Source of the DNA: Vitis vinifera
Taxonomy: Eukaryota; Streptophyta; Magnoliopsida; Vitales; Vitaceae
DNA: 64,000 nt
Assembly (NCBI RefSeq): GCF_030704535.1
Contig: NC_081813.1
Span: forward strand, 3,620,001-3,684,000
Reading direction: 5' to 3'
Shown here: piece after piece, positions 4,601 to 28,211 of the stretch
How positions within the stretch are numbered: the stretch's first letter is position 1
Layout: every line of letters begins with the position of its first letter
Notes under the pieces: generated by a model
Databases searched by the model: none
Told to the model about the DNA's origin: nothing
What the model saw: only the letters and a program-made list of their open reading frames with translations
Translations under genes and position numbers: made by a program

Positions 4601-5033
4601 TTCAAAAGAGGAGGTCAGTTGAATTTTATGTTTTCAATAACTTTTTTAATCAAATAATCCTTCAAAAAAAGATATAAAATTTCACCAATATTAACCTGTA
4701 TTATTTTATCATGCGTTATAGTTTCATCCATTATTTTAATTTTTCTTTTTTTTTTATGTTTATCAAAATTTTCATCGATAATAATATTCTTTCAATGTTT
4801 CATGAAATTAAATCATCCATATTTCCATCGCTACCAATATTAGTATTAATTGACCAGTCTGTGCCCATTGTACAACCCTTTCGCCACAATTTACAGCGTA
4901 AGATATGCATGTGGCTGGCCCAACTAAAAGAACAACAGCCCAGGACTACCAAGCTGAAGCCCACATTTTCAATGGCCCAACCCAAAATTCAAGATGCTGA
5001 GGCTAATTTGTTTTAAATATAGGCACCTGTCAT
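1681..5033. other. AT-rich intergenic DNA with an old internal duplication
   Basis: No supportable gene. The stretch is very AT-rich with many poly(A)/poly(T) runs. Segments around 1870-2560 and 4030-4640 share ordered blocks (for example a 'gaagatac/attgggaagtt' block followed by 'cattcataa', then 'cactttttcttggcaat'-like sequence), which indicates an ancient diverged duplication. Short ORFs here are low-complexity. Confidence 0.5.
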
Positions 5034-5705
5034 GTGATTTTGTGCTTGGATTGCGTTTCGTTTAATTCATTTCGAGTTGGGTTTGCTGCGAATATTACCT
5101 AAAATTTTCCATCTACCCTCTGTTTGGTTGCTGAGAGAGTTCAGGGAAATAAAGGAAATTTTGAAAATTGAATACATATTTCAACTTCCCAATATCTTCA
5201 TGTGAAACATGGTTGAATGAAGCTGTTTCTTAATAAATGCACTTCAGAGATTCTTGTTTGGAAGACTTGGTGGACATGTTGTCCATGTTTTGGACAAAGA
5301 GGTATAAATTATCATTGAGTAATGAATACTTCTACTTCTGGTATTGGACCTATTGGAGCATTAAAGAAAATATGGGTTATGATAATTTATTTACTACATA
5401 TTTTCTATTCTCTTTTCATTTCATCATTTTGCTTTTATTCATGTAAGTTGAAAATTTAATATATCATATGTTTAATGTGTTTTGTCAATTTCTTTTACAA
5501 AAATTTCAAACATGTTTTGCTTTTAAAGCCTTTGGTATCTTGGTTTATTTAAGTGGGCATTTATTTTACTTGAGATGCATGCATTCATATTGCTAATGTG
5601 GTGCTTTGGTATCTTGGTTTATTTAAGTGGGCATTTATTTTACTTGAGATGCATGCATTCATATTGCTAATGTGGTGAAGTATTCATTCATTGTCGTTAT
5701 TATGT
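5034..5705 (+). pseudogene. Exon-less duplicated fragment of the chaperonin-60 beta 5' introns
   Basis: Blocks align in order with the CPN60 beta gene: 5034-5170 with 13669-13806 (5' UTR intron), about 5205-5300 with 13968-14078 (same intron), 5301-5460 with 14980-15145 (intron after coding exon 2) and about 5510-5700 with 15180-15300 (same intron). The copy lacks the sequence matching 14079-14979, that is coding exon 1 and coding exon 2, and has no promoter or 5' UTR exon. It therefore cannot encode protein. The junction at 5298-5302 (caaag|aggtata) suggests a deletion at short homology. It is a relic of the segmental duplication that also gave the two ankyrin genes. Confidence 0.75.
5530..5677. 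repeat. 74-bp tandem duplication in the chaperonin relic
   Basis: Two adjacent near-identical 74-bp units, 5530-5603 and 5604-5677, start with ctttggtatcttggtttatt. The functional gene has a single related copy near 15200-15275, so the duplication arose after the segment was copied. Confidence 0.85.
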
Positions 5706-6924: not shown

Positions 6925-7660
6925 TTAGTATACATGAAATCCTTGTCCTAGAAACAGAGCACTATCAACATCAGAGTAGCTGGATTGTGTGATATTGTTA
7001 CGTTTGTCAGCAGCAGGCACTGCCTCTTCTATTTGTTTCATCCCTTTCGACTTCGTATGTTTTTCTCTCCTCGTCTTCAACTTCGTTAGTCGGTGTCTTA
7101 CCAACTTCACACCTAGATAAACAAAAACACTTCCTACTGTTCCAATAGACAAAGAAAGTAGAAGCTCAAGTGTCCATTTGGTTCCCCTGTCATGTGGTAT
7201 AATCACCCATGTTGCTGCAACATAAGCTGTAGCCATGAACGATACTGCCACCCACATGACCTTGTGAGCAACCACCAGTAGCCTTACCAGTGATTTTCTC
7301 TGGAAGGGGATGATGCTGACTAGGACTATGACGATGCAGAGAGATGAAAACAATGCGATGTTGTTGCTTATCATGAAGATCTTGAAAGCTATTGTTCTGC
7401 CTACTGTGGATTTGCCTTTCAGTGGTCCATCTTGGTAGACACCACCAGGAGGGCTTATGCCTGCTGTGAAAGTAACCGTGGCGATCAAAATTGCGACTAG
7501 TATAATTGTGTTCCTGGCATTTTGAAGGGCTTCTTTGTATATTTCATTTTGCCTATTCTGACGAATTTGGTGAAGCTCAAGTAGGTCTCTCCTGTGTCTT
7601 TGACTGAGATGCTTGTGTCTTCGCAAACTGCTTGAGGAACTCTTGGTTCTATTTGTCAAG
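6925..7660 (-). pseudogene. Severed last exon of ankyrin copy 2: PGG domain with four membrane spans
   Basis: The frame encodes a basic linker ([15 protein letters not shown]), then the PGG domain: [21 protein letters not shown] followed by [11 protein letters not shown]. Three more hydrophobic spans follow (near [39 protein letters not shown] and [18 protein letters not shown]), and the chain ends GQGFHVY. It has no start of its own; the frame runs into the inserted element at 7661. If the insertion and one copy of the 5-bp duplication are disregarded, the frame is continuous with 9343-9790 (…RTAL / TNRTK…), so this was the 3' part of the same exon. It is now probably untranslated unless the element is spliced out. 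Confidence 0.85.
7656..7660. repeat. Target-site duplication, left (TCAAG)
   Basis: The pentamer tcaag immediately precedes the TG end of the insertion and recurs immediately after its CA end at 9343-9347. Confidence 0.85.
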
Positions 7661-9342
7661 TGTTGGGGATAAATGTATGCCCAAGATCCAATCTATCATG
7701 TAATCAACTTTAGTTTTAATAAGATATTAATTCTTTATTTCATTATCATATCTGTTTAAAATAGTTTATATGATAAGGTCCTTGATTAAAATTTGAAATT
7801 GTTATCATGATAGAGATTATGATAATGAGAAGCAATTCTTTTAATAATTTTAATCTAAACTGTTCTTGATCATAGGATTATTGTCAACAGGACATCAATA
7901 ATCCAGATAGATCAATATATATGTGATGGTCTTTATTGGATAAAGATTGATATATCTCATTTGTTAAATTACATATATAGATGATGCACATGTAGATGTG
8001 ATCATTGAACTGACTCAACTGAGAATTTCTAATGGTTATCTTTACCTTAAATTGTCAATAGGAATTTCTCAAGAAGAAATATAATAGTTTTCTTTGACCT
8101 GAGATTATCAAAGTAATTAACAAGTTATTTATTATATTTTAATCCCGGACACCTAATGCCTTAGGGCACTAGTTGAATGGATATTGGATATAATTAAATA
8201 CTTGTAGAATTAATGATTAATCAAGAAGGAATCCATCAACTCCTGGTAATGAGTTTGAGCTCTATGATAAAAAAATAAGACCTTGGCCAAGGGTAATTGA
8301 ATGAATGAAGAAATGAGTTTCTTAAGTCATTCACTAAATAAATAATGTGTTGACTTATTAGAGTTTGACAGTAATACCATACTCTAGAGTTAGCCCAGAG
8401 CTGTAAATGATGGAAGGAAATATTACATTATTCTTCTACCGGTTCTTGAAAGTAAAAGATATTACTTCATACTATCTGGACGTTAAGGAGTGTTGCTAGA
8501 CGCCTACCTTAATTAGTAAATTGATTTGATTAATTTACTACCAGCTTAGTAATGAACCTACGGGGTCACACACAAACGAGTGTTTTAATCTTTGCAAAGA
8601 GCTATTTATTATTATTTGATAATTAAATTAGAGAATTTAATTTTAATCAAATAAATAAATATGTTCTATGTGGAATATTATTATATTCTTTGCTAGCACC
8701 AAGAATATAATTAATATATAGATAAAAAATAAAATAAAATAGTTTTCTTTGGACGTGGAAGTTAGTCCACGAGAATGTTTGCTAAACATATGGGTACATG
8801 CAGCAACTTACCGGAGGGATGTGGGTTTTGTTTTTTAACTTACAAGACTTGGTCAAAGTGTTTTTTCAAATGCTATTGAAAATAGCAAAAAGAAAAACAA
8901 ATGGACCAATAGAATCTCTTAGTAGCCCAAAAAAGAAGGAGGACACGATAGAGATAGATTAAGTGATAAAATCAAAAAATCAAATTAGTTGAGTTATCTT
9001 ATCACTTAAAACAGAAGTTGTATTGGATATGCTATATAGCATATATACACAATCTGAATAAGGATCGATCTATCTTTATCCTTCTTGTTTTTACGCCAAA
9101 GAAATACAAAGTGTTGTTCTATTTTATATTTTTTAAGTTCCGCGTATCAAAGGGTTGATAGCAAAGATTAATTTCGGTGTGGATACACGTAGAGTCTTCA
9201 TACAATTGGAGAAAATTTTATGCTTGAAGAACTGATATCCAGGTTATTATTTTAAATTTTTGATAGCTGCAGTATATATTTTGAATGCAAAATAGATCAA
9301 TTTTCCGCTGTATGTGTTATAAATTTATTTTATAACCTTTCA
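7661..9342. mobile_element. Solo-LTR-like insertion inside ankyrin copy 2
   Basis: A 1,682-bp segment begins TGTTGGGGATAAATG and ends ATAACCTTTCA, is bounded by TG...CA and is flanked by perfect TCAAG duplications. It has no ORF above about 60 codons, no primer-binding site and no second LTR. That fits a solo LTR left by recombination between the two LTRs of a retrotransposon. 5-bp duplications and TG/CA ends are the established signature of LTR-element integrase. A candidate TATA stretch and transcript-start area lies near 9030-9060 in plus orientation ('gctatatagcatatatacac'). The element splits the last coding exon. The lineage is unresolved: the long LTR and TGTTGGGG start suggest Copia. 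A non-autonomous element without coding DNA is the alternative. Confidence 0.8.
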
Positions 9343-10918
9343 TCAAGGCCGTCCTTGGTTCAGACTGATTATCATCCTGAATTTCAGATTTCTCTTCAAC
9401 TTGATGGTTGAGTAAATCAACCCCAAAATTCTTTTCAATGTCTAATGCAGGCAGGTGCTCTGTTGTGTGATTGCCTAGTTTGTCTTCTGTGGGCAATTCG
9501 AACCGGCTTTCAGAGTGTGTCCCAAAGTCCAGAGGAATTTTGAGTTCTTCACCATGTACATCTTCGGGTCTTTCATCATGTGCCAGAGGCTGGGGACTTG
9601 TTCCCTCAATCAATGGCATAAGGGACGACAATTCAATGCTCCTTTTACCACCAGCTTTCTTTATCATGTCTTCAAGATGCATGTTTTTGGAAGTGCTTCC
9701 AGCCTGATTGAGGATGTCAAGCACTGTTTGGCCTCTAGAGTTCCTGAAATTGATCTCCACCCCTGTTTTATTGATGATGTAATCTGCTAACTGGAATAAA
9801 ATTGAGATAAAAGAGTTGGTTGTTAGAATAGCCATGAAAATGACTCGTCTTTGTTCAATCTGCAATAAAATGTGTATATGAGCGTGTTTGGCTATATGAG
9901 AGATCCCTACCCGATGGCGCCATGCAGAAACTGCAAGATGTAAGATGGTGTTACCATTTCTGTCTGGTCGCTGGAAGAGAAGTGTATCACCAAAAACCTG
10001 TGCCAAGCATACAAAGGCACTGTATTGGTTGAATCTTACGATGAGATGAAATACTGTCTCTCCCTCAGATGTGAGAAACTGAAAAGAAGTGGGAACTATG
10101 GCCAGGAATTCCTCCAAGACTGCACCTTTCCCTTTCATGGCTGCCAAGTGCAATGGAGTACAACGGCTGTTATCAAATTTCATAGCAAGACCTGGGTCAA
10201 GCCGAAGAAGCATTTTTACTATCTCCAAATTGTCCCCACAACAAGCATAGTGCAATGCTGAAAATCCCTTTTTGTCAGTCTTTGGAGCAAAGTCGGGGCA
10301 TACCTCTAATATCTTCCTAACCACATCTGCAATATGGTATCTGAATTTGGTTAAGCAGCAGAACATTTTCACTTTACTGATTTCATCAAATGATTTAAAT
10401 GCGGGAATATCAGGAGATCCCCATAAAATCAAAGAAAAACAGCAGCTGATCGAAGTTTGCAACTTACCTGTGTGCCCTCTTGATACAGCGACATGAAGAC
10501 AAGTCAGATCAGACCCATCTTCCTCAAATTCCATTAACCAAGGCTGGTTCAAAATGAGCTTCACCACCTCCAGGTGCCCGTTGCTGCAAGCCAAGAACAT
10601 TGCACTCTGGTCTTCATGGTTAAGCACGCAACCAACCCAGGGATTGGTCTCTAATAGCATCATTACAACATTGGCATGCCCATGCCGACAGGCCTCATGC
10701 AATGGGGTCTCCCCCTTCTTATTACAATCTTCAGTCGTTCTAGGATCCAACTTTATAATTTTGGAGACCATTTCATGGTGTCCGAACCTCGAAGCCAGGT
10801 GTAATACCGTGTTCCTAGATCTGGCCGTCCTGGCACTGAGATGATCTTTGTCTTGAACTAGTTGGAAGAAAGTGAACATGTCATTGGTTGCAATCGCCTT
10901 GAAAAGGGATGATTCCAT
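9317..10918 (-). CDS. Ankyrin-repeat protein, PGG type, copy 2 (truncated by LTR insertion)
   Basis: Exons: 10468-10918 (ATG 10916-10918), 9911-10326 and 9343-9790, with readthrough into the element to a stop at 9317. Borders are GT-AG (CACACAG|GTAAGT; gcag|ATGTGG; CATCGG|GTAGGG; ttccag|TTAGCA). The spliced product is 446 aa: ankyrin repeats (TVLHLASRFGHHE, GETPLHEACRHGH, GFSALHYACCGDN, CTPLHLAAMKGKG, GNTILHLAVSA) and an acidic linker. It then gains eight element-derived residues (MKGYKINL) in place of the four-span PGG membrane domain. The intact ancestor would have been about 681 aa. Both introns (141 and 120 nt) are multiples of three without stops, so unspliced RNA gives one 533-codon frame. 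Family role, from knowledge of ITN1/ACD6-like proteins: membrane-linked stress or defence signalling. The truncated form should be soluble and is probably non-functional or altered. Confidence 0.8.
   Translation of the reverse strand: MESSLFKAIATNDMFTFFQLVQDKDHLSARTARSRNTVLHLASRFGHHEMVSKIIKLDPRTTEDCNKKGETPLHEACRHGHANVVMMLLETNPWVGCVLNHEDQSAMFLACSNGHLEVVKLILNQPWLMEFEEDGSDLTCLHVAVSRGHTGKLQTSISCCFSLILWGSPDIPAFKSFDEISKVKMFCCLTKFRYHIADVVRKILEVCPDFAPKTDKKGFSALHYACCGDNLEIVKMLLRLDPGLAMKFDNSRCTPLHLAAMKGKGAVLEEFLAIVPTSFQFLTSEGETVFHLIVRFNQYSAFVCLAQVFGDTLLFQRPDRNGNTILHLAVSAWRHRVGISHIAKHAHIHILLQIEQRRVIFMAILTTNSFISILFQLADYIINKTGVEINFRNSRGQTVLDILNQAGSTSKNMHLEDMIKKAGGKRSIELSSLMPLIEGTSPQPLAHDERPEDVHGEELKIPLDFGTHSESRFELPTEDKLGNHTTEHLPALDIEKNFGVDLLNHQVEEKSEIQDDNQSEPRTALMKGYKINL
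9343..9347. repeat. Target-site duplication, right (TCAAG)
   Basis: Second copy of the 5-bp duplication, directly after the CA end of the element and within the ankyrin coding exon. Confidence 0.85.
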
Positions 10919-12040
10919 TTTCTTAGCTTTTGCTCCCTGTCCCTGATGAATTTTCAGAGGAGTTTCTGCAAGGATGAGAGCCGATGCTTCACAACTCTTC
11001 CAGAAACTGGGAATAAATAGAGAAATTGAGTGTTAAAAGGTGGGGATGACAAGACCAAGTTTTCTTCCCGGAGGGAAAGCATCTAACAGCTTCTCAGCAT
11101 TTTCTAGGAAATCATCCATCAACTATTCAGCATCTTCTTAGCCATTGACCAAACTTCTACTTCATTAGCCCTTGTAGATACAATGACATACATGTTGACT
11201 TGGTAAATTGTTCAAGCTTAACCTATGACTTTGGTTTTAATTTATTATTCAAGAGATTTTGATTTTAGATAAATTAAATTGGTTGGTGGAATGATGATAT
11301 GTTAGAGCTAGAGTGCCAAAATTGGAGATGTCCTGTGCCAAAATTAGAGCAACTTCTCCAATGTCCTAGTCAAGACATTAGAGAAGTTGTCTACAGGAAA
11401 GAGACAACAAAGGATGACTAGCAGACAAGGACTCCTTCTCCACCAACTACAACTCCGTGTGAACATTGAGCATAGTGACTTTTCAAGTGAGTTTCAACCT
11501 TTATCCTCTTTATATTCAATTTCAACTCCTTATTTTTCACTTGTGTTAGTTGTGTGTGGGGTTTGATTAACACAACTTGAACTATTGCATGGACCAACAA
11601 TTCCCCTTCAACATTTTTTTTTGTCTTCCTTTTGTGTCCATGACAACCTCCTCTTAAAAAATAGATTTTGAAAAACAATTATGTTATGTTTTCTTTAAAA
11701 GAAAATTTTATTTGAGAATTTGTATTAATTTTTTAGAATAAATGTTTACTTGTGTTTTTAATCTTTATGTTTTCAAATATTTTTTAACAATAACTTTCAG
11801 ATTTAGCGTTTTATTTCTAATCATATTTTATGTTTATATAATTATCTTTTAAAATTATTCTTAAAAATATTTAAAATATGTTTTCAAAATTATTTTATCT
11901 TCCAAATAAGTTTTTAAACAATCATTTTTATTAGAAAATTTATTAAACAAATTTTTTTGAAATTTCGATTTATTTTTAAGAACAATTGAAAAAAATAGTC
12001 ACAAACATTATCTTTTTTCATTTTTTAAGAAAGATCCTTT

Positions 12041-13385: not shown

Positions 13386-14516
13386 GTAATTTTCCGGTAA
13401 CTGGGTTTTTCTTGTCTTCTGTTTTTTTCTGTTTGGTTCCCTAGAAAATGTAGGGGGAAAAGTTGTTGAAAGTTTCAGCCTTTCATGTTTCATTGTGTGG
13501 TTTGCCTAACAGAGCTCTAAATTCTGGCTTTCTAGAAGCTCCGCTACATTTGCCCGTAGTTTCTTCTGTAACCAGACAGAGGGTTTGAGTTTCCTTTAGG
13601 TTTCTTATTCATTGAGTGAGGTTTTGAGATTTTCAATGTTGACATATTCTCTGGCATTTTTTATATTTGTGATTTTGTGTTTGCATTGCGTTTCGTTTAA
13701 TTCATTTCTAGTTGGGTTTGCTGCGAATATTACTTAAAATTTTTCATTTACTCTGTGTTCGGTTGCTGAGAGAGTTAAAGGGAAATAAAGGAAATTTTGA
13801 AAATTGAACTACAAGTTGGGTTGGTGCATTTTATATGTTGAACACTTGTTTTACTTTTGGAATTTCAATAAGAAGCTTGATTTCTGTTTCATCATTATCA
13901 TTTGGATGATTCCAGTGATGGCTCCATTTTACATGACTGACTTGTGGGTTCAAATGAATATGTAAAACATAGTTGAATGAAGCTGTTTCCTTTAGCTTTT
14001 TCACATCCCCTAATAAATGTCCTTTAGAGATTCTTGTTTGGAAGACTAGGCGGTCATGTTGTCCATGTTTTGGACAAAGGGCTTGAAGTCCTTGACTGGT
14101 GTATGTGTGTTTTGTGATTTCTTTTGTCTTGTTTCTTGTGTGCAAGATAGTTTACATGTATTTGCTGGTTAGTTGTTTCTGTTCTTTGATGAAACCCTTA
14201 GAGTTGTACTGTCCAATTAGGGCTTCTAATCGACTAAGAGAGGATTTGAAATCTGGGTAACATCCCAATGGCATAATGCCTATAGATTTTAGGACTTGGG
14301 TTTTGAGATGGAAAATGACTAAATGGCATGTTTGAGTGTGATTGACTGTAGGTGAGGATGTTACATCATGTTATTGAGGAATCAAGGTCATTGTTGCTAA
14401 ATAACATTGCTTATCTGCTCTTCCCTGTTCTTTTCTCTTTTAAATTATGTCGGTTATTCTTTTGGTTGGGATTTGAAGAGAAAATGATGTTTGAAGTTTC
14501 AGGTTCTTGAAAGAAA

Positions 14517-18619
<4,103 letters not shown>

Positions 18620-24288: not shown

Positions 24289-24543
24289 TGTTGAGATATT
24301 ATGATATATTCTAGGAAAGTATATTAGGAAAGTAGTTGCTATTGTTTAGGATTGTTTCCTAAACTCACGATTGAGATATTATGATATATTCTAGGAAAGT
24401 ATTCTAGGAAAGTAGTTGCTATTGTTTAGGATTGTTTCCTAAACTCACGGTTTTCCCTTAATTAGGTTTGCTTGATGTACTATATATTTACGTGGATGAA
24501 TATCAATTAGGGTCAAGCTTTGACCCTTTAATCACACTTTACA
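24289..24543 (+). repeat. 5' LTR of Copia element
   Basis: 255 bp, from TGTTGAGATATTATG to CACACTTTACA. It contains a near-perfect internal tandem duplication with an 80-bp period (units start at 24291 and 24371). A TATA-like 'actatatatttac' follows near 24479-24491, consistent with a promoter. Confidence 0.93.
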
Positions 24544-24555
24544 TGGTATCAGAGC
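24544..24555 (+). promoter_or_regulatory. Primer-binding site
   Basis: tggtatcagagc directly after the LTR is complementary to the 3' end of initiator methionine tRNA, the usual primer of plant Copia elements. Confidence 0.88.
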
Positions 24556-24580
24556 GCTGACATGCACACACAATAAAACA

Positions 24581-27500
24581 ATGGCCGGCGACGATGAACA
24601 ACCACCATTGTCGCCACCTAAAAGGGAGATGAATTCACCTTTTTTGCCCAAACAATGGAAAGCTCTTGCGGGCTTAATTGGTAATGCTCAAGTTCTGGAT
24701 GACAGGTTGAATGGTAAGTTTGACACGAAGTCATGGATCATTGACACCGGGGCAACTCATCACGTGACCGGTGATTTATCTTGGTTATTTGATACTATAG
24801 CGTTGTTTGAGTGTCCGGTTAGCCTTCCTAATGGTGAATCTGTTGTTACGACCCAATCTGGTTCCGTTCGTTTGTCGAATAACATCACTCTTCAAAACGT
24901 TCTTTATGTGCCGAAACTCAATTGCAATTTACTTTCGGTTTCACAATTGACTGATGACTTACATTGTATTGTCCAATTTAACTCTTATATGTGTGCTATA
25001 CAGGACCACACCAGGGAGCTGATTGGAACGGGAGTTAGGCGAGATGGACTTTACTACTTCGGTGGAGCTGAAGGTGATTCGGTACAACATGTTTCTGTCC
25101 ACAACGCAGCATCCACTTTGGAGTTGTGGCACAAAAGGATGGGACATCCTTCAGAGAAAGTAGTGAAGTTACTTCCTCCAGTTAGCAATCTTAAGGGTAG
25201 TTTAAACAAAGCTTGTGAAATATGTTTTCGTGCTAAGCATCCTAGAGACAAATTTCCTTTAAGTGACAATAAGGCAACTAGAATTTTTGAGAAAATACAT
25301 TGTGATTTGTGGGGCTCTTATAAACATGTCTCTTCTTGTGGAGCTCGTTATTTTTTAACTATTGTTGATGATTTCTCAAGAGCTGTGTGGATTTATTTGT
25401 TGGTCGACAAAACAGAAGTTTTTCGGATGTTTATGTCTTTTATTGCAATAGTAGATCGACAATTTTCTCAAACAGTGAAAGTTGTTCAAAGTGATAATGG
25501 TACGGAATTTAAATGCCTACTTGACTATTTTTCTGCAACTGGTATTTTATTCCAAACTTCTTGTGTGGGAACTCCGCAACAAAATGGGAGGGTTGAGAGA
25601 AAACACAAGCATATTTTAAATGTGGGGAGGGCATTACGCTTTCAAGCAAATTTGCCTATTTATTTTTGGGGCGAAAGTGTTCTTGCCGCTGCTCACTTAA
25701 TAAACCGCACTCCCTCTCCTTTGTTACACAATAAAACACCATTTGAAATCCTATTTGGCACCCCTCCTTCATATGCGGCAATTCACACCTTTGGTTGTCT
25801 TAGTTTTGCTCATGATAAAAAATCCAACGGTGACAAATTTGCAAGTAGAAGTAGAAAATGTGTGTTTTTGGGTTACCCGTTTGGAAAGAAGGGGTGGAAG
25901 TTGTTTGATTTGGACACCAAGGAATTATTTGTTTCTCGTGATGTCAAGTTCTTTGAGGATGTTTTTCCGTTTGGTAACCCGGGTGCTGTGAATATTATTC
26001 CGGAAAACATTGTGCCTACGGTAAATGTTGAAATTGATAGTGATTTTGCTGATTTTGTCGATGATGATGCTGATTTGCCTAACCCACAAGCCCAAACACA
26101 AAATCCCGAGGCTTCTTCAGCGCCTCTTTCACCTGGGCCGGAAGTTGTTCCCACTGTTGGGCTTGATTCACTTGGACTTGACAATTCAAGCAATGGGCAG
26201 TCTGCTCCTATGGGAAAGGGAATGAGGGATAAATTTCCTTCGGTTCTATTACGAGATTTTGTTACTCATACGGTGGTTGCTGAAAGTCCATCTCCCGCCA
26301 CTCCGTCTCCACAGCATCCCTCAGGTACTCCTTATCCCATAGCACATTATATAAATTGTGACAATTTTTCTATACATTATCGAAAGTTTCTTGCCACTAT
26401 TATTTCGAGCAATGATCCTAAGTCATTTAAAGAGGCTATGAAAGATGTCGGTTGGCAAAAGTCAATGCATGAGGAGATTCGGGCTTTGGAGGAAAATGGT
26501 ACGTGGACTCTTGAACCTCTTCCAAAGGGTAAGCGTGCTTTGGGAAGTCAGTGGGTTTACAGAACCAAGTACTTCTCAAACGGTGATATTGAAAGGCTCA
26601 AATCCAGATTAGTAGTTTTGGGGAATCATCAAGAAGCTAGTATTGATTATCATGAGACATTTTCTCCAGTTGCCAAAATGACTACGGTGCGTGCTTTCTT
26701 GGCTATTGCGGCTTCGAAAAATTGGGAACTTCATCAGATGGATGTTCACAATGCCTTTTTACATGGAGATCTTGAGGAGGAAGTGTATATGAAGCTACCC
26801 CCAGGATTTGAGCGTTCCGATCCGAACTTGGTTTGCAGGTTACGGAAATCACTTTATGGGTTGAAACAGGCTCCGAGATGTTGGTTTTCCAAGTTGGTCA
26901 CGGCTCTTAAAGGATATGGTTTCTTACAATCCTACTCTGATTATTCTCTTTTTACTTATACTACGGGCAATGTTCAAATAAATGTGCTAGTGTATGTCGA
27001 CGATCTTATTATCTCTGGGAATGATTCCGCTGCTCTTAAGACCTTTAAAGCCTATCTCAGTGATTGTTTTAAGATGAAAGATCTTGGTGTTTTAAAGTAT
27101 TTCCTCGGAATCGAGGTGGCCAGGAGTTCGGCTGGTTTGTTCTTGTGTCAACGCAAGTACACACTTGACATTGTATCGGAGGCCAGATTACTGGGAGCCA
27201 AGCCGTGTGGCTTCCCGATCGAGCAAAATCACAGATTAGGACTCGCAAATGGGGAGCTCTTGTCGAACCCTGAGTCCTATCGCAGATTAGTAGGTCGACT
27301 CATTTATCTGGCAGTGACCCGTCCAGATTTGGCCTACTCGGTTCATATATTATCTCAATTTATGCATGAGCCTAGAATTGAGCATTGGGAGGCAGCTTTG
27401 AGAGTCGTTCGTTATTTGAAAGGTACTCCGGGTCAGGGTATCTTGTTACGTGCAGATAGTGATCTGTCCCTACAGGGTTGGTGTGATTCTGATTGGGCAG

Positions 27501-27949
27501 CATGTCCAGTCACTAGACGCTCTTTGTCCGGATGGCTTGTGTTTCTTGGGCAATCTCCTATTTCTTGGAAGACAAAGAAGCAACACACAGTTTCCCGCTC
27601 GTCTGCAGAAGCGGAATACCGAGCTATGGCAGCAGTTACTTGTGAGCTCAAATGGTTGAAGGGGTTGCTTCTGAGCCTGGGTGTGCACCACCCAAAGGCA
27701 ATCAAGCTCTTTTGTGATAGTCAGTCAGCCCTTCATATGGCCAAAAATCCAGTATTTCATGAACGCACCAAACACATTGAGGTTGATTGTCACTTTGTCC
27801 GGGATGCGATAACAGATGGTTTGATTGCTCCATCATATGTTCCTACTGTTACACAATTGGCAGATATTTTTACAAAGGCTCTTGGAAAGAAACAATTTGA
27901 TTATCTTCTTGCCAAGTTGGGCATTTTTGAACCTCATGCTCCAACTTGA
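24581..27949 (+). CDS. Copia pol polyprotein (protease-integrase-RT-RNase H) with gag deletion
   Basis: 1122 aa, uninterrupted. The first 20 residues (MAGDDEQPPL…) resemble a Copia Gag N-terminus, but the roughly 300-residue Gag core and zinc knuckle are absent and the frame passes almost directly to a pre-protease linker. Visible catalytic features: protease DTGA at 55-58; GAG-pre-integrase zinc-finger region around 183-216 (H..H..C..C); integrase D242, D305 and E339; RT D721 and YVDD at 805-808; RNase H D969, E1010 and D1046. All are intact, so enzymes may be active while particle assembly must rely on another element. The product makes cDNA from element RNA and integrates it into the genome. 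The stop overlaps the polypurine tract. Confidence 0.95.
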   Translation: MAGDDEQPPLSPPKREMNSPFLPKQWKALAGLIGNAQVLDDRLNGKFDTKSWIIDTGATHHVTGDLSWLFDTIALFECPVSLPNGESVVTTQSGSVRLSNNITLQNVLYVPKLNCNLLSVSQLTDDLHCIVQFNSYMCAIQDHTRELIGTGVRRDGLYYFGGAEGDSVQHVSVHNAASTLELWHKRMGHPSEKVVKLLPPVSNLKGSLNKACEICFRAKHPRDKFPLSDNKATRIFEKIHCDLWGSYKHVSSCGARYFLTIVDDFSRAVWIYLLVDKTEVFRMFMSFIAIVDRQFSQTVKVVQSDNGTEFKCLLDYFSATGILFQTSCVGTPQQNGRVERKHKHILNVGRALRFQANLPIYFWGESVLAAAHLINRTPSPLLHNKTPFEILFGTPPSYAAIHTFGCLSFAHDKKSNGDKFASRSRKCVFLGYPFGKKGWKLFDLDTKELFVSRDVKFFEDVFPFGNPGAVNIIPENIVPTVNVEIDSDFADFVDDDADLPNPQAQTQNPEASSAPLSPGPEVVPTVGLDSLGLDNSSNGQSAPMGKGMRDKFPSVLLRDFVTHTVVAESPSPATPSPQHPSGTPYPIAHYINCDNFSIHYRKFLATIISSNDPKSFKEAMKDVGWQKSMHEEIRALEENGTWTLEPLPKGKRALGSQWVYRTKYFSNGDIERLKSRLVVLGNHQEASIDYHETFSPVAKMTTVRAFLAIAASKNWELHQMDVHNAFLHGDLEEEVYMKLPPGFERSDPNLVCRLRKSLYGLKQAPRCWFSKLVTALKGYGFLQSYSDYSLFTYTTGNVQINVLVYVDDLIISGNDSAALKTFKAYLSDCFKMKDLGVLKYFLGIEVARSSAGLFLCQRKYTLDIVSEARLLGAKPCGFPIEQNHRLGLANGELLSNPESYRRLVGRLIYLAVTRPDLAYSVHILSQFMHEPRIEHWEAALRVVRYLKGTPGQGILLRADSDLSLQGWCDSDWAACPVTRRSLSGWLVFLGQSPISWKTKKQHTVSRSSAEAEYRAMAAVTCELKWLKGLLLSLGVHHPKAIKLFCDSQSALHMAKNPVFHERTKHIEVDCHFVRDAITDGLIAPSYVPTVTQLADIFTKALGKKQFDYLLAKLGIFEPHAPT

Positions 27950-27956
27950 GGGAGGG
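27948..27956 (+). promoter_or_regulatory. Polypurine tract
   Basis: gagggaggg directly abuts the 3' LTR and overlaps the pol stop codon. It is the expected plus-strand primer site. Confidence 0.85.
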
Positions 27957-28211
27957 TGTTGAGATATTATGATATATTCTAGGAAAGTATATTAGGAAAG
28001 TAGTTGCTATTGTTTAGGATTGTTTCCTAAACTCACGATTGAGATATTATGATATATTCTAGGAAAGTATTCTAGGAAAGTAGTTGCTATTGTTTAGGAT
28101 TGTTTCCTAAACTCACGGTTTTCCCTTAATTAGGTTTGCTTGATGTACTATATATTTACGTGGATGAATATCAATTAGGGTCAAGCTTTGACCCTTTAAT
28201 CACACTTTACA
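27957..28211 (+). repeat. 3' LTR of Copia element
   Basis: 255 bp. Reading against the 5' LTR shows no difference, including the internal 80-bp duplication (units at 27959 and 28039). Confidence 0.93.

Follow-up and report, generated by a model that had tools for sequence, protein, structure and literature searches.

The closest published counterpart of the locus described here is the grapevine AMAT gene, exon 2 of which carries a solo long terminal repeat (LTR) between 5-bp direct repeats (PMC7166211, in the portion used here). In Arabidopsis, ATCOPIA93 inserts in exons, and both ATCOPIA93 and ATCOPIA78 are found in environmentally responsive genes, according to the sections of that study on which we draw (PMC6668482). 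Genes of the ANKTM type are described, in the relevant part of the source, as coding for a membrane part that comes after ankyrin repeats (PMC9353636).

We analysed a 64,000-nucleotide stretch of the Vitis vinifera genome (the window), in which an ankyrin-PGG gene has its last exon interrupted by a solo LTR from a Ty1/copia family. As in AMAT, a solo LTR with 5-bp direct repeats interrupts a coding exon in Vitis; the AMAT insertion, however, is a 499-bp TRIM LTR with a larger TRIM insertion known at the same place (PMC7166211, same portion), whereas here the LTR is 1,682 bp long, belongs to a copia family with full-length members and lies in an ankyrin-PGG gene. Since an exonic solo LTR has been published for AMAT, this type of event is already known. 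No prior account of the present insertion or of its LTR family was found in the open-licence literature searched. With ATCOPIA93 and ATCOPIA78 the family shares its Ty1/copia class and insertions into environmentally responsive genes and, with ATCOPIA93 in particular, insertions into exons; the Arabidopsis work is backed by experiment and H2A.Z data in the sections cited (PMC6668482), while ours covers 21 sites at the sequence level. The interrupted gene resembles the ANKTM genes in the order of its parts (PMC9353636, relevant part) but is cut between the ankyrin and membrane parts, and any role of its own in defence is putative. The locus offers a naturally occurring, clean disruption allele within a gene family that other work has tied to plant defence.

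The solo LTR and the interrupted exon

The earlier note had described a 1,682-bp TG...CA segment between perfect TCAAG duplications, and had read it as a solo LTR inside an exon. The coordinates are exact to the base, with TG at 7661 and CA at 9342 (Table 1). The segment recurs at many places in the genome, has a 5-bp target-site duplication (TSD) and is without internal sequence. It is a single LTR directly bracketed by the matching TCAAG copies, and neither genome BLAST nor the flanks revealed a second match nearby. The reading is further backed by other genomic copies, by full-length relatives and by an uninterrupted paralogous exon. As the transcriptional direction of the LTR is the plus strand, it lies antisense to the minus-strand ankyrin-PGG gene.

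Table 1. Features of the interrupted gene and of the exonic insertion sites of the family (window positions unless a contig is named)
Feature	Position	Strand	Basis or remark
Ankyrin-PGG gene, exon 1, ATG at 10918	10468..10918	-	frame, donor site, tandem paralogue
Exon 2, ankyrin repeats	9911..10326	-	frame, tandem paralogue
Exon 3, part before the insertion	9343..9790	-	frame, tandem paralogue
TSD TCAAG, right copy	9343..9347	.	sequence
LTR bases translated in frame	9317..9342	-	two bases finishing the M codon, seven codons, TAA
Solo LTR, Ty1/copia family	7661..9342	+ (antisense to gene)	genome copies, primer-site side in full-length relatives, copia domains of L012
TSD TCAAG, left copy	7656..7660	.	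sequence
Exon 3, part after the insertion: PGG and four hydrophobic clusters, native stop 6925-6927	6925..7655	-	Pfam, hydropathy
Exonic site, window copy			ankyrin and PGG exon
Exonic site, L012 (full-length)	C19:12063344-12071720		ankyrin exon in large C19 ankyrin-gene cluster; closest paralogue 98%, uninterrupted
Exonic site, L015	C8:17995560-17997236		short-chain dehydrogenase (SDR); domain match itself spans site
Exonic site, L018			C-JID (TNL); closest paralogue 92%, uninterrupted over site
Exonic site, L020			terpene synthase; closest paralogue 95%, uninterrupted over site

The interrupted gene, which we take to be an ACD6-like ANKTM gene, has three open exons with GT/AG splice sites. 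Disregarding the LTR and one TSD copy restores, as had been proposed, a continuous frame (681 aa) through the ankyrin repeats (Pfam, in 9344-11032) and the PGG domain (PF13962, in 6928-7656, E=1.1e-32). The two parts likewise share one frame in the tandem paralogue, but not in the product of the present allele. Here the M codon straddling the junction is begun in the TSD and completed by LTR bases, and 23 nt of LTR are translated before a premature TAA at 9319-9317. The resulting product has 446 aa, of which 438 are native and eight are wholly or partly LTR-derived; the predicted truncation is upstream of the PGG domain. Kyte-Doolittle peaks above 1.6 form four clusters, near residues 488-506, 538-562, 561-591 and 601-621 of the restored frame, and at this threshold no hydrophobic cluster precedes the insertion site. 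The proposed loss of all four membrane spans and gain of eight element residues thus agrees with the calculated product, and a membrane protein is predicted to have been turned into a soluble one.

A tandem neighbour at C9:3618817-3621374, which lies partly outside the window on its upstream side, shares the three-exon structure and encodes 716 aa. Its exon runs uninterrupted through the paralogous insertion position and so stands in, as a paralogue, for the empty site. Of 680 aligned residues, 526 are the same in both proteins. Among the 138 PGG matches listed in the genome this neighbour is by far the nearest (83%), followed by two on C4 (50% and 48%). The intact sister may serve as a built-in control for the disrupted gene. 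We also note stretches of 76-92% identity between 5033-5700 and 13668-15295 of the window, which suggest that the tandem duplication behind the two ankyrin-PGG genes may also have included some of the 5′ region of the following gene; that gene resembles, by eye, a chaperonin-60 gene. Downstream of the intact paralogue, and upstream of the window (L009:959-3082), there is a copia remnant with its pol frame in three pieces separated by stops.

A young Ty1/copia family

BLAST of 7661-9342 against its own genome (495.6 Mb in 21 contigs; match counts are lower bounds) returned at least 27 matches, the window copy included, so that the possibility of a sequence with no other genomic copy falls away. 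Bases 1 to 1680 or 1682 are spanned by 24 of the 27 listed, and the 23 of these outside the window are 96-99% identical to it. The search for full elements with the same LTR, suggested in the earlier note, yielded four (L011-L014, accounting for eight LTRs). Also among the matches listed are 17 solo LTRs, namely 16 near-complete ones (the window's counted) and the internally deleted L030, which is in two pieces, and one 337-bp LTR fragment (L031). Leaving out the fragment, the solo and full-length copies make up 21 insertion loci. A perfect 5-bp TSD, different in sequence every time, is present at 18 of them. Of the three exceptions, L021 is flanked by ATTGC at either end provided that the final two LTR bases are read as GA, the flanks of L025 differ by one base (TAAGA/TCAGA), and the full-length L013 (C10:26388393-26396784) is without matching duplications (TAAAC/ATAAC), possibly because elements recombined with one another.

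The LTR of L011 and L012 is directly followed by tGGTATCAGAGC, presumably an iMet-tRNA primer site; L014 is identical over the sequence examined, and a single base of this site is missing from L013. The interior of L012, the one full-length copy searched in this way, was cut into five pieces and each was compared with Pfam. Pieces 1-4 gave, in order, copia-type gag with zinc knuckle, pre-integrase, integrase core (rve) and, after rve, RVT_2 (E=4.3e-68); the fifth gave no Pfam match, and the coding frame is interrupted by stops. Because this domain order places integrase before RVT_2, the family is classed as Ty1/copia.

Divergence between the two LTRs of each full-length copy is low (L011 0.0006, L012 0.0060, L013 0.0096, L014 0.0018), and on these sequence measures the family is judged young. 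In an alignment and tree of 24 copies (L030 and L031 omitted) the window LTR clusters with L015 (support 0.94), and its private changes comprise three substitutions and two insertions. Three substitutions over the 1,682 bases would take about 0.14-0.27 million years to accumulate at rates of 1.3e-8 and 6.5e-9 per site per year, a figure nearer an upper bound since some of the private substitutions may precede the insertion.

Probable origin of the allele and predicted fate of its product

We consider it very probable that a Ty1/copia element inserted antisense in the last exon and was reduced by LTR recombination to a solo LTR, leaving an early stop and a truncated or poorly expressed product. 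An element of about 8.4 kb would have landed in the exon and created the 5-bp duplication; its two LTRs would then have recombined, with loss of the interior, so that the single 1,682-bp LTR remained. Translation would enter the LTR for 23 nt and end at the TAA. We infer this order of events, as we do the loss of function and the fate of the RNA. The outcome would be either a 446-aa ankyrin protein that lacks the PGG membrane part and is soluble, or an mRNA that is poorly expressed or possibly unstable and whose 3′ UTR is very long. Low mRNA would be expected because this 3′ UTR exceeds 2 kb if transcription reads through the LTR. The RNA could also end within the LTR, where AATAAA occurs on the gene's strand at 8610, 8133, 7937 and 7739.

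An allele in which the LTR is excised within a new intron, and which still yields a shortened membrane protein, is in our view unlikely. GT/AG pairs over the LTR were scored with a crude consensus matrix. There are 155 frame-keeping pairs, and the best (9337 to 7460) scores 5.28, close to the weaker of the gene's own introns (4.09 + 1.88 = 5.97; the other scores 11.1). Against this, donors in exon 3 reach at most 2.1, compared with 8.6 and 4.1 for the native donors, and use of the 9337-7460 junction would remove some 65 residues and with them most of the first hydrophobic cluster. The scan thus contained no strong cryptic splice pair across the LTR. Splicing over the LTR was rejected as the source of the main product, the best pairs being weak and losing part of PGG even though one of them nears the weaker native intron; minor in-frame splicing is possible on paper.

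That the element landed in an existing pseudogene is very unlikely. The close tandem copy alongside means that its loss may have been tolerated, but decay before the insertion is contradicted by the open frames of all exons, by the GT/AG splice sites and by dN/dS against the paralogue, which is 0.31 before the insertion site and 0.36 after it. These values point to relaxed constraint in neither half over the lifetime of the gene pair. The same absence of decay on both sides of the insertion also weighs against our favoured account, in that any loss of function would be recent, partial or not real. Finally, a full-length element collapsed to one LTR by the assembler is extremely improbable: the family's LTRs are nearly identical, a type of repeat prone to collapse, but four full-length copies were assembled whole and the genome size is close to that of a gap-free grapevine assembly, given as 494.87 Mb in the part of the report cited (PMC10199708).

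Insertion into coding exons across the family

For each of the 21 loci the flanks were joined and screened for open frames across the insertion site, and the frames were compared with Pfam. A frame of at least 80 aa runs over the site at ten loci, and at five of these host-gene domains score above cut-off (Table 1); C-JID is presumably the C-terminal domain of TNL proteins. Only at L015 does the domain match itself span the site. The site is next to the match at L012, L018 and L020, where the exon reading relies on the uninterrupted closest paralogue. The closest paralogue of L015 (71%) extends only five residues beyond the site and another (54%) twelve; as the frame departs from its paralogues past this point, a second lesion in the dehydrogenase gene is possible. 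The five loci are all within tandem arrays or pairs, as judged from the positions of paralogue matches. L026 was rejected as a sixth, its PROPPIN match being 15.9 bits against a cut-off of 30 and its site just past the exon end; these features suggest an intronic position within a PROPPIN-like gene.

Twenty random sites on the same chromosomes were treated identically. Eight have a frame of at least 80 aa at the centre; four of these match domains that we read as transposable-element and four (L067, L068, L075, L080) have no Pfam match, so that unrecognised exons among the controls are possible. With this open-frame and Pfam procedure none of the 20 gave a host-gene domain. Exonic sites thus number 5/21 in the family against 0/20 at random (p=0.048), or 4/20 against 0/20 (p=0.11) when the window copy, which prompted the analysis, is excluded. 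For an assumed coding fraction of 7-8%, four or more of 20 would be exonic with a probability of 0.05-0.07. A second control set, which does not enter the p values, consisted of 20 random sites with 200-bp flanks and a threshold of 60 aa. Frames of this length cross the centre at ten, and the longest of each, when compared with Pfam, gave nothing above cut-off; the sole match was DUF6634 (16.7 bits, cut-off 27) in the repetitive L098, while L087 has an open 133-aa frame with no Pfam match. These second controls are weak, because the short-flank rule recognises only three of the five exonic family sites.

The enrichment of the family in coding exons is suggestive, and we treat it as a lead rather than a result. 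The exonic sites fit the preference of ATCOPIA93 for exons and responsive genes, as given in the sections of that study cited (PMC6668482). A broader reading is tentative, and we would not bet on it: the family would prefer coding exons of clustered, environmentally responsive genes (here ankyrin-PGG, TNL, terpene synthase and SDR), and rapid LTR recombination, with 17 solo to 4 full-length copies, would leave short loss-of-function alleles in these arrays. With the insertions of this small, young family one could ask whether copia elements target exons in a woody crop as they do in Arabidopsis.

The window holds one further copia-like insertion, at 24289-28211, with two identical 255-bp LTRs, a GAATT duplication and the primer site tggtatcagagc. 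The identity of its LTRs indicates a very recent insertion. Its pol frame is long but no gag is evident on inspection of the sequence, and the element is for this reason perhaps dependent on a partner element.
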